Positions 6,992 to 11,446 of a stretch of 33,475 bases of DNA are shown piece after piece. Every line of letters starts with the position of its first letter. The stretch's first letter is position 1. Where the stretch lies: positions 1-33,475 of the forward strand of contig CAKZUT010000196.1 in the NCBI GenBank assembly GCA_937922185.1. The letters are read 5' to 3'. A model generated the notes under the pieces. The model was not told the origin of the DNA, ran no database searches, and saw nothing but the letters and a program-made list of their open reading frames with translations. Origin of the DNA: an uncultured Neomegalonema sp. (GTDB lineage: Bacteria > Pseudomonadota > Alphaproteobacteria > Rhodobacterales > Rhodobacteraceae). Made by a program: the position numbers and the translations under genes.

Positions 6992-7461
6992 AGGACGCGA
7001 TCACGCTCGTTGTCTTTCTCGTCCTCTCCTTCCTCGTGGGGGGAGTGGGCGGGCAGGTGACGCAATCGGCGCTCGTGGATTGGTATCCGGCCCTCGAAAA
7101 GCCGTTCCTCAACCCGCCCGATGCTGTCTTTCCCGTGGCCTGGACGATCCTGTTCATCACGATGAGCGTGGCGGCGTGGCTGGTCTGGCGACAGGGCTGG
7201 CGCGAGCCGGAAGCCGTCAAGCGGGCGCTGAGGCTGCATTTCCTTCAGCTTCTTCTCAACATGGCGTGGTCGGTGGTCTTCTTCGGGATGCGCTGGCCGC
7301 TCGGGGGATTGCTGGTCCTCGTGCCTTTCTGGCTGATCGTCGCGCGCATGGCGCAGGAATATCGCGCGGTATCGGCCCCGGCCTTCTGGCTGACGATCCC
7401 CTATCTGCTCTGGATCGGTTTTGCCGCCTTCCTGAACATCGCGATCCTCGCCCTGAACTGA
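6988..7461 (+). CDS. tspO: TspO/MBR family tryptophan-rich sensory protein
   Basis: 157 aa, five hydrophobic segments, WYPALEKPFLNPPDAVFPVAWTILF and LLLNMAWSVVFF motifs; GTG start overlapping plsC stop. Confidence 0.92.
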   Translation: MKDAITLVVFLVLSFLVGGVGGQVTQSALVDWYPALEKPFLNPPDAVFPVAWTILFITMSVAAWLVWRQGWREPEAVKRALRLHFLQLLLNMAWSVVFFGMRWPLGGLLVLVPFWLIVARMAQEYRAVSAPAFWLTIPYLLWIGFAAFLNIAILALN

Positions 7462-8567: not shown

Positions 8568-8751
8568 CTCGGTTCTCCGTTAACGATTGCAATGGATCAG
8601 CGTATCACGACGGCACGGCGAAAAGAGCCGGTCGGGCGTGAAAAAGTTAACCTGTGGCGCGGGTTCAACAACCCATGGGCGAATGCGCGGATTCCAATGG
8701 AAGATTCGGATCGCCCGTGATTGCCGGTCCGCGCGAGGCATCCCCGTCGTC

Positions 8752-8796
8752 ACGGTCTCGTGACATCGCGAACTTGCGACCACTGCATTCGTCTTC
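8752..8796 (+). promoter_or_regulatory. Putative ECF-type promoter upstream of the sigma factor gene
   Basis: ACGGTCTCGTGACATCGCGAACT-N15-CGTCTTC; near-identical element with the same spacing at 10136-10180. Confidence 0.7.
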
Positions 8797-8835
8797 CCCG
8801 TGCGATGGTTCGCCGAGAAAGGAAACCGAGGGACG

Positions 8836-9396
8836 ATGCGACGATCCGATCCTGAGATAGCTGCGCTTGATCGCGTGTTCCGCGAGAACCTGACGGGCCT
8901 GTATCGTCTGGCCTATACGCTGCTGCGCCAGCGCGAAGAGGCCGAGGACGCGGTGCAGGACGTCTGGTTGCGGATCGCCGGAACGGGCTTGCCGCCGGGC
9001 GGGGTGCGTCATCCGCGCGGCTGGATGTTTCGTATTCTGCGGAACCTGTGCATCGACCGCCTGCGCGCGCGCCGGACCTTTCTGCGGGTCGTCTCGACGG
9101 AAACGGATATCGCGTCACTGCCTGCAATGGAGGACGGGGTGCCGACGCCGGATACGGTGATGGAGACGGCTGAGACTCTGGCCTGCACGATGCGGGCAAT
9201 GGAGGCGATGTCGCATGAACTGGCGGAAGTTCTGGCGCTCGTGGTGGTGGAGGAGATGAGCTACCGCGAGGTCGCTGCGGTCCTGGAAGTTCCTGTCGGC
9301 ACCGTCCGCTCCCGCCTGCACCGCGCTCGCCTGACCCTGCGCGAGACTCTGGCCGCCGGTGATGCCCGAACGGCTCACGAAGGAAATGCGGGATGA
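8836..9396 (+). CDS. RNA polymerase sigma factor, ECF subfamily
   Basis: LYRLAYTLLRQREEAEDAVQDVWLRI (region 2), MSYREVAAVLEVPVGTVRSRLHRAR (region 4 HTH). Start chosen at MRRSDPE preceded by GAGGGA. Confidence 0.93.
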   Translation: MRRSDPEIAALDRVFRENLTGLYRLAYTLLRQREEAEDAVQDVWLRIAGTGLPPGGVRHPRGWMFRILRNLCIDRLRARRTFLRVVSTETDIASLPAMEDGVPTPDTVMETAETLACTMRAMEAMSHELAEVLALVVVEEMSYREVAAVLEVPVGTVRSRLHRARLTLRETLAAGDARTAHEGNAG

Positions 9397-10127
9397 ACGA
9401 ATGCGAACGCATGATCGACGTCGATGCCCTGATCGACGGAGAGGCGGGCGAGCAGGCGGCGGATATCGAGCGCCATATCCGGTCCTGCGAGACATGCCAC
9501 GCCTATGCGGTGGAGGCGCGGCGCAGCGATGCCTTCCTGCGCCGTGCCTTGGGCGAGAGCGAGCCGCAGGATGATTTCGAGGAACGCCTGTTCGGGCCGC
9601 CCCCCGCGCCGGTCACCACGTCGCGCAGGCAGGTTATGGCCGGTCTCGGGGTGGCGGCGTGTCTGGGCGGGCTGGGATGGTTCATGCGGCCTTCCTCTCC
9701 GGGTGATGCGGATTTTCGGCAGGCGGTGCTGGGCGATTTCGCGACCTACATCGCCGCCGACAAGCCGCTCGATATCGCGGCATCGGATGTGGCGCGGGTC
9801 GTGCCGTGGATTTCGGCGCGCGTTCCCTTTGTCCTGCCGGAGCATGTGTCACCCGATGGTGCGCGTCTTCTCGGCGGGCGGCTATGCTGGCTGGTCGGGC
9901 GACGGCTGGCGGCGCTGAATTTCGAGGTCGGGGATACGCCCGTCGGTCTTTATATTGCCGGAGCCAGAGGGCTTGAGGGCCTGCCGGAGGAGGGCGCGCG
10001 CACGGTCGGGGACGGTCGCGACGGCCTTCGCGGGTCTTTCTGGCGTGATCGGGGACTGGCGCTCGGCGTGGTAGGGGCGCTTTCGGCATCGCGGCTTGCC
10101 GATATCGCGGACGGTTTGCAGGGCTGA
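9393..10127 (+). CDS. Anti-sigma factor with zinc-binding (ZAS/zf-HC2) motif and one TM segment
   Basis: HIRSCETC (HX3CX2C), TM VMAGLGVAACLGGLGWFM; ATGA overlap with the ECF sigma gene. Confidence 0.85.
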   Translation: MNECERMIDVDALIDGEAGEQAADIERHIRSCETCHAYAVEARRSDAFLRRALGESEPQDDFEERLFGPPPAPVTTSRRQVMAGLGVAACLGGLGWFMRPSSPGDADFRQAVLGDFATYIAADKPLDIAASDVARVVPWISARVPFVLPEHVSPDGARLLGGRLCWLVGRRLAALNFEVGDTPVGLYIAGARGLEGLPEEGARTVGDGRDGLRGSFWRDRGLALGVVGALSASRLADIADGLQG

Positions 10128-10135
10128 TAGCGATA

Positions 10136-10180
10136 ACGGTTTCGTGAGATCGTGAACTGCCCCCCTCCCGGCCCGTCTTC
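10136..10180 (+). promoter_or_regulatory. Putative ECF-type promoter upstream of the MoeA-like gene
   Basis: ACGGTTTCGTGAGATCGTGAACT-N15-CGTCTTC; matches the element at 8752-8796 at 20/23 upstream and 7/7 downstream positions. Confidence 0.7.
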
Positions 10181-10213: not shown

Positions 10214-11446
10214 ATGCCCCCTGCCAGCTCTGCCGCCGTGATCGACACTTCCGCACCGCTTGCCTGCGCCCGCCGCCCCACCCCGGATCGCGCCGTGCGG
10301 GCCATGCTCGATCTGGTGGCTGGACTGCCTCCGCTGGCTGTTCGGACGATGCCGCCCGGTTCCTGCCATGACCGCATACTGGCCGAGCGGGTGCGCGCCG
10401 ATGCGGATATCCCCGCGCGGGACAGTGCCGGGGTGGACGGGTTCGCGTTTTCGCGCAGGACATGCCGGGGAGACGGTCCCTGGTGCCTGCGCGTGATACC
10501 CCGCATCGCCGTCGCGCGAAATCCGGCGGCGGAGAACGCCATGTTCTCGCCCGAAGCGGTGCGGATCGCCGCCGGTGGGCCTGTGCCGTCACAACTCGAT
10601 ACGGTCGTTCGGGTCGATGCGGTGCGCGCGCAGGGGGAGCATATCTTTCTCGACACCCTGCCTGACGAGGACGTCACCATCTTGCGGCGGGGAGCACATG
10701 CCCGCTGCGGTGATGTGATCGCCCAGCCGGATCGATTGCTCGATGCCCGCGATCTCGCGGGGCTGGCCATGGCCGGATGTTCGGGCGTGAGAGTACGGCG
10801 CGGCCTGCGGGTCGGCATCCTCTCGTCCTGCACCGGCAAGCAGGACGGCCATGGCGGTCCCGCGCGGGCGATGCTGATGGCTGCGCTGGACCGGCGCTGG
10901 ATCGCGCGGCGGGATCACGGGGCCGTTTCGGGCAGTGCATTGCTCAGGACTCTGCGCGCGATCTCGGCGGAAAGCGATGTGGTGCTGGCTCTCGATCCGG
11001 GCGGCATGGCCGATCGCATCGTGGCCGCAGGCGGTCAGATCGTTCTTGACGGGATCGCGATGCGGCCAGGGGGCGGCGCGATCCTCGCGACCCTTGATGA
11101 CGCGGTAATCCTGCTGGTGCCGGAGGAGCCGGTAGCGGCCCTCACCGCGATGACAATCCTCGGCTGGCCTGTCCTGCGCCGCCGCGCCGGTATCCGTCAT
11201 TCGCGCATGGTGCCGAGGGCCGGGATCGCCGCCTTTACCCTGCCGCCCGGTGCGAATCCGGCCCGCTATCCTCTGGTGCGGGTCGCCGGAGCGGGAGAGG
11301 TGCCGACGCTGGAGATGCTTTCAGGGACCGTGGATACGATCTCTCTCCTGTCGGGGGCAGACGGCATTGCCTGTATCGCGCCGGATACCGGGGTGGGGTT
11401 CGGCGACCGGGTGGCATGGGTGCCGGTCACGGACCGGTTCGCCTGA
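10214..11446 (+). CDS. Divergent MoeA-like molybdopterin molybdotransferase family protein
   Basis: DIPARDSAGVDGFAFS, AAGGPVPSQLDTVVRVDAV, VRRGLRVGILSS, GIAMRPGGGAIL align by eye to MoeA landmarks; canonical TGDEL, GGVSVG and PGNPVS segments are not conserved. Confidence 0.72.
   Translation: MPPASSAAVIDTSAPLACARRPTPDRAVRAMLDLVAGLPPLAVRTMPPGSCHDRILAERVRADADIPARDSAGVDGFAFSRRTCRGDGPWCLRVIPRIAVARNPAAENAMFSPEAVRIAAGGPVPSQLDTVVRVDAVRAQGEHIFLDTLPDEDVTILRRGAHARCGDVIAQPDRLLDARDLAGLAMAGCSGVRVRRGLRVGILSSCTGKQDGHGGPARAMLMAALDRRWIARRDHGAVSGSALLRTLRAISAESDVVLALDPGGMADRIVAAGGQIVLDGIAMRPGGGAILATLDDAVILLVPEEPVAALTAMTILGWPVLRRRAGIRHSRMVPRAGIAAFTLPPGANPARYPLVRVAGAGEVPTLEMLSGTVDTISLLSGADGIACIAPDTGVGFGDRVAWVPVTDRFA

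Follow-up and report, generated by a model that had tools for sequence, protein, structure and literature searches.

A layout in which a sigma gene and its adjacent target both carry the same promoter has been proven for rpoE4-sorT (PMC6527743). The promoters of SmRpoE4 and SnSigE have GGAAT as the -35 element and CGTC as the -10 element, and no further strong promoter match was found for RpoE4 or SigE (PMC6527743); the -35 consensus of the ECF26 group is GGAATA (PMC6180224). The CenK-CenR system is widely conserved in alphaproteobacteria, and in R. sphaeroides 28 of the 31 CenR sites immediately precede a -35 element, while a sigma gene, rpoH1, is among the genes directly activated by CenR (PMC9275681). 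The S. meliloti CenR protein binds a site, AGTCAC-N6-GTGACT, immediately before the -35 of srlA and likely works there as a class II activator; activity drops when either arm of the site carries point mutations (PMC9561847). It is also known that MoeA has been repurposed in bacteria as Glp (PMC11733289). The regulatory unit of Neomegalonema described here is real and well conserved; its parts are known and their combination is unusual. A literature search for ECF sigma factors with moeA, and for the molybdenum cofactor with ECF sigma factors, returned no described counterpart among the papers covered.

The window, by which we mean the whole stretch of 33,475 nucleotides that was analysed, contains an ECF sigma gene at 8836..9396, an anti-sigma gene overlapping it at 9393..10127, and a MoeA-like gene at 10214..11446, all on the plus strand. 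The original prediction placed a duplicated, bipartite promoter in front of the sigma and the MoeA-like genes. Upon re-checking, the two 45-nt elements at 8752-8796 and 10136-10180 indeed share 20/23 bases upstream and 7/7 downstream of a 15-nt spacer, on the same strand as first described, and they end 39 nt before the ATG of the sigma gene (8836) and 33 nt before that of the MoeA-like gene (10214), just as had been claimed. The exact two-part pattern was absent from all 100 dinucleotide shuffles of the window, the chance expectation being none. The genome-wide scan that had been proposed as a check, carried out on the 3.4-Mb genome with the relaxed pattern TCGTGASATCGYGAACT-N13-17-CGTC, matched only these two places, and the reversed control pattern gave 0 matches in the same genome.

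It is worth pointing out that the true left edge of the upstream block is at 8750 and 10134, 2 nt beyond the point where the original prediction stopped, and that it starts with T(C/A)AC. These bases complete a dyad, T(C/A)AC-N6-GTGA, which makes up most of the 20/23 block: TCACGGTCTCGTGA at 8750-8763 in the sigma promoter, kept in 9/9 orthologous sigma promoters, and TAACGGTTTCGTGA at 10134-10147 in the MoeA-like promoter, neither of them assigned to a strand. The gap from the dyad to the GAAC of the -35 is 6 or 7 nt. A bipartite description of the promoters therefore falls short: their best-matching portion is a dyad in its own right, one that fits the box of the response regulator CenR; the predicted ECF core holds, but the structure is tripartite, consisting of dyad, -35 and -10.

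The fit to CenR was assessed with a matrix built from the 31 published R. sphaeroides CenR sites (PMC9275681), independent of any Neomegalonema sequence. Over both strands of the 33-kb window, the three best of 66,922 positions all fall on the two dyads: the sigma-promoter dyad takes the first rank, the MoeA-promoter dyad the second with its best match on the minus strand, and the hits are 8763-, 10147- and 8750+. When the matrix was applied to eight orthologous loci, the dyads came first, or first and second, in 8/8. Judged by this matrix of published sites (PMC9275681), both promoters have a CenR-type box directly upstream of the -35. All the dyads have CGTGA unchanged, and the position flanking the arms shows partial covariation (G-C, A-T, T-A), the statistics being modest with one such pair; in three species the MoeA-promoter dyad reads TAAC for TCAC, and is therefore imperfect there. 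From this match we infer that CenR is the protein that would bind and activate at the dyads. With the transcription start placed as in mapped S. meliloti promoters, the dyads are predicted to centre near -46, slightly further out than the -42 at srlA.

The core of the sigma promoter consists of GAAC at 8770..8773 and CGTCTTC at 8790..8796, that of the MoeA-like promoter, placed by the promoter alignment, of GAAC at 10154..10157 and CGTCTTC at 10174..10180, all on the plus strand. An alignment of 13 promoters shows no variation in GAAC or CGTCT, which lie 16-17 nt apart, and the -35 reads GAAC(T/C) in 13/13. Taking mapped ECF promoters of S. meliloti as a guide (PMC6180224), we predict that transcription of the sigma gene starts near 8802. 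An alternative, longer sigma reading frame would begin with a GTG at 8800, which would about coincide with this predicted start; the ATG at 8836 is therefore preferred.

Both the genes and their promoters have been kept within the genus. The sigma, anti-sigma and MoeA-like genes occur as a block in the same order in 9 of 14 Neomegalonema genomes. In five loci (the window and L063-L066) its neighbours are META-domain, tspO, plsC and ftsX genes, whereas the other four (L067-L070) have different flanks; the block thus holds together as a unit. Conservation upstream of the orthologues, on which the original prediction was to stand or fall, was found: all nine sigma genes have the dyad and 8/9 have the ECF core. 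The MoeA-like gene has its own copy of the promoter in 5/9 loci, all of them in the window's clade; no such promoter was seen before the MoeA-like genes of the sister clade, where the whole operon is probably transcribed from the one promoter at the sigma gene. Having a second promoter is hence a feature of the window's clade, and the "duplicated" element, correct for the window, does not extend to a general rule, as 4/9 species have a single copy for the whole operon.

One locus, L066, departs from this pattern. Its sigma gene is preceded by the dyad TCACGGTTGCGTGA, at about 7389-7403 on the minus strand; GAAC is replaced by CCGG, and CGTC is missing from its expected position. The MoeA-like promoter of this locus keeps both dyad and core. 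Compared with the other loci, the sigma promoter of L066 has lost the ECF core naturally. In the original prediction the sigma factor was autoregulated and also drove the MoeA-like gene. This is still the best reading of the sequences, because an ECF-type core stands before both genes, is conserved at the orthologous loci and is absent elsewhere in the genomes; with the sigma gene of L066 lacking the core, autoregulation is not universal. As a separate observation, another block, CTGTGGCG..GTTCAACAACC, is found at 8640-8690 of the window, between the sigma gene and the divergent META-domain gene; it is kept in L064 and partly in L065 and L066, and is perhaps the promoter of the META gene.

How far does the regulon extend? 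A degenerate pattern derived earlier from the window alone already recovered the promoters of four orthologous sigma genes. A promoter model of 52 positions was then made from 13 promoters. In the 14 genomes of the genus these promoters, on which the model was itself trained, score 34-46 bits and the next match 16 bits, and in a 199-genome sample of the family nothing outside the genus scores above 20.4 bits. A wider regulon was considered and rejected: the extra matches from the pattern and model searches of the 14 genus genomes, where inspected, fall inside coding frames or have no dyad. The regulon likely comprises nothing beyond the sigma operon and the MoeA-like gene, in keeping with what is reported for RpoE4 and SigE (PMC6527743), and a small, closed, autoregulated circuit is well supported by the sequences. 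A link to sulfite oxidase-type enzymes was also tried; PF00174 is present in 14/14 genus genomes whether they have the locus or not, which makes it uninformative.

The sigma factor has sigma2 and sigma4 domains only (Pfam Sigma70_r2, Sigma70_r4_2), and it is one of 5 ECF sigma matches in this genome. The nine orthologous sigmas form one clade with a support of 100/99. Membership in ECF26 (the RpoE1/3/4/6 type), which the layout of sigma and target had suggested, was dropped on two grounds: the -35 is not GGAATA, and the tree places the nine sigmas apart from the RpoE6-like sigma of S. medicae, the sole reference of known type included. The proximity of the sigma gene leads us to infer that its product reads the GAAC / CGTC core. 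The anti-sigma factor has an H-x3-C-x2-C motif, a hydrophobic segment (near residues 83-100, judged by eye) and a C-terminal domain. Its H28, C32 and C35 are invariant in 9/9 orthologues, which fits the zinc-type class I signature, and zf-HC2 matches 7/9 of the orthologues weakly. An N-terminal helical bundle is confidently predicted (helices 7-14, 19-31 and 33-55), the rest of the model being without confidence. Such a protein would be expected to inhibit the sigma factor. In a related ECF sigma locus of another genus, L100 (1988-3436), the anti-sigma gene is followed by a sulfite-oxidase-like gene, which is the rpoE4-sorT layout.

The MoeA-like protein is best regarded as a pseudo-MoeA, a MoeA/gephyrin fold whose active-site residues are lost, as seen from Pfam MoeA_N, a table of residues and a fold model. 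The model has the fold of the MoeA/gephyrin E domain with a pLDDT of 79.5, and its best PDB matches are gephyrin E, MoeA and Cnx1E. Compared with E. coli MoeA, the window's clade has lost E188, D228, D259 and K275 together with the SGGVSxG and LPGNP motifs; in the sister clade D259 and K275 are lost, with E188 and D228 kept. In two further MoeA genes of this genome E188, D228, D259 and both motifs are present, and the position of K275 is Arg in each. The nine MoeA-like orthologues form a single clade. Pairwise dN/dS within the window's clade is 0.13-0.37, and 0.17-0.37 when the window's gene is set against its orthologues; there are no internal stops, and we therefore see a maintained protein under purifying selection and not a decaying gene. 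The name given in the original prediction is thus right for the fold but, going by the residues, not for a working molybdenum insertase. The protein is probably a repurposed pseudo-MoeA, more likely a scaffold or sensor than an enzyme. It is not Glp, the divisome MoeA, for it scores 82.7 bits on the NCBIfam Glp model, where the cut-off is 475. Among the nearest MoeA relatives found outside the genus is one in L071 (4399-5709), which follows nitrate-reductase-like genes and has most of its active-site residues intact.

The dyad is also found in other company. A CenR-like dyad stands upstream of 22/30 fasciclin-domain genes from genomes of the family (L304-L333), with 0.07/30 expected by shuffling; it begins 71-109 nt before the start codon and is followed by a TGANCC / CGTA core. 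With the CenR matrix, 22/30 fasciclin upstream regions reach at least 12 bits, compared with 3/495 other windows; in the pattern count, the 23 "other" windows with a dyad mostly overlap the same fasciclin sites. Fasciclin genes inside Neomegalonema have no convincing dyad upstream. The fasciclin gene of Azospirillum is under the control of RpoE-ChrR, and that of R. sphaeroides, RSP_1409, is listed as raised in a study of photooxidative stress (PMC10949492, PMC7074977). These sites suggest a family-wide link between CenR and fasciclin expression. A further CenR-like dyad, at site 1500 of L280 in another genus, lies upstream of a small protein with a signal peptide, DUF2282-type in look.

The sequences show the elements, their conserved and gene-restricted occurrence, the fit to published CenR sites, the loss of residues and the purifying selection. 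On this basis we propose that, in this wastewater alphaproteobacterium, a small and closed ECF circuit receives a second regulatory input, for which CenR is the candidate; we hold this to be the probable reading, with some reserve. In this circuit a signal would free the sigma factor from its putative membrane-type anti-sigma factor, and the freed sigma would transcribe its own operon and the MoeA-derived gene through the GAAC -35 and CGTC -10. Positive feedback would raise the levels of both sigma and pseudo-MoeA. With a CenR-fitting dyad adjoining each -35, CenR would act as an activator next to sigma, from directly upstream, and the output would then need both the ECF signal and the envelope signal of CenK-CenR. 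The fully specified version, an AND gate of ECF sigma and CenK-CenR whose dedicated output is a catalytically dead MoeA, recruited independently of the actinobacterial Glp as an envelope or division scaffold, is a good deal more tentative and we would put it on the doubtful side.

A simpler account is plain ECF autoregulation, in which all 23 nt of the upstream block act as an enlarged -35 region recognised by sigma alone and no second regulator takes part. The block does go together with the core in 13/14 promoters, and within the genus these promoters are confined to this locus. The variable gap of 6 or 7 nt between block and GAAC, however, is more easily reconciled with an independent protein than with a single rigid contact; the same dyad precedes 22/30 fasciclin genes of the family, which are members of other systems; it tops the ranking of an independently derived CenR matrix; and in L066 it persists without the core. 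We consider this account unlikely. The same L066 sigma gene, having the box only, lends itself to the opposite idea, that CenR drives both genes through another holoenzyme and that the ECF factor is a CenR target regulating neither itself nor the MoeA-like gene. Strong CenR-like boxes at both genes and the precedent of rpoH1 in R. sphaeroides (PMC9275681) speak for it as well, but the GAAC / CGTC core is ECF-like (cf. the -35 GGAAT and -10 CGTC of SmRpoE4 and SnSigE, PMC6527743), invariant and present only beside this sigma gene, and CenR acting without the ECF factor seems quite improbable. The remaining alternative concerns the output: the MoeA-like protein may still insert molybdenum or tungsten by way of an atypical site, and the circuit would then provide cofactor when it is needed, much as RpoE4 cells are provided with sorT. 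Metal-specific MoeA paralogues can share one genome (PMC13197769), and the sister-clade copies retain E188 and D228. Set against this are the residues and motifs that the window's clade no longer has, in a genome whose two other paralogues keep the acidic residues and motifs; one of those lost, Asp228, coordinates Mg2+ in E. coli MoeA (PMC9458074). A surviving insertase is thus improbable to a similar degree.

If the proposed circuit is true, ECF signalling and the essential CenK-CenR envelope system would meet at single promoters to make a compact two-input switch, and the MoeA-like protein would be the second bacterial case of MoeA turned non-enzyme. Judging by the CenR-like boxes in front of fasciclin genes across the family, coupling of this kind may extend further than has been described so far.

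Among the known systems, the closest in layout are the alphaproteobacterial circuits of SmRpoE4 or SnSigE with an anti-sigma factor and a sulfite oxidase (sorT/sorA). They share with this locus the sigma/anti-sigma operon with an adjacent target, the tiny regulon and the -10 CGTC, and in the S. meliloti circuit of RpoE4, an ECF26 factor, the sigma and target promoters likewise carry one core. Here, in contrast, the -35 is GAAC and not GGAAT, the target is MoeA-derived and not a molybdenum enzyme, an upstream dyad box is present, and the sigma lies outside the clade of the one RpoE6-like ECF26 reference in the tree. With the CenK-CenR regulon of S. meliloti (srlA) and R. sphaeroides the locus shares a box of the TCAC-N6-GTGA type directly upstream of the -35; what sets it apart is that the candidate box stands together with an ECF-type core, in the promoter of an ECF sigma gene itself. 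With Glp, the divisome MoeA paralogue of Actinobacteria (PMC11733289, PMC10522489), the MoeA-like protein has in common the MoeA fold, the degraded active site and the intact MoeA copies alongside, but it is far under the Glp cut-off, belongs to a different phylum and is probably under the control of an ECF locus.
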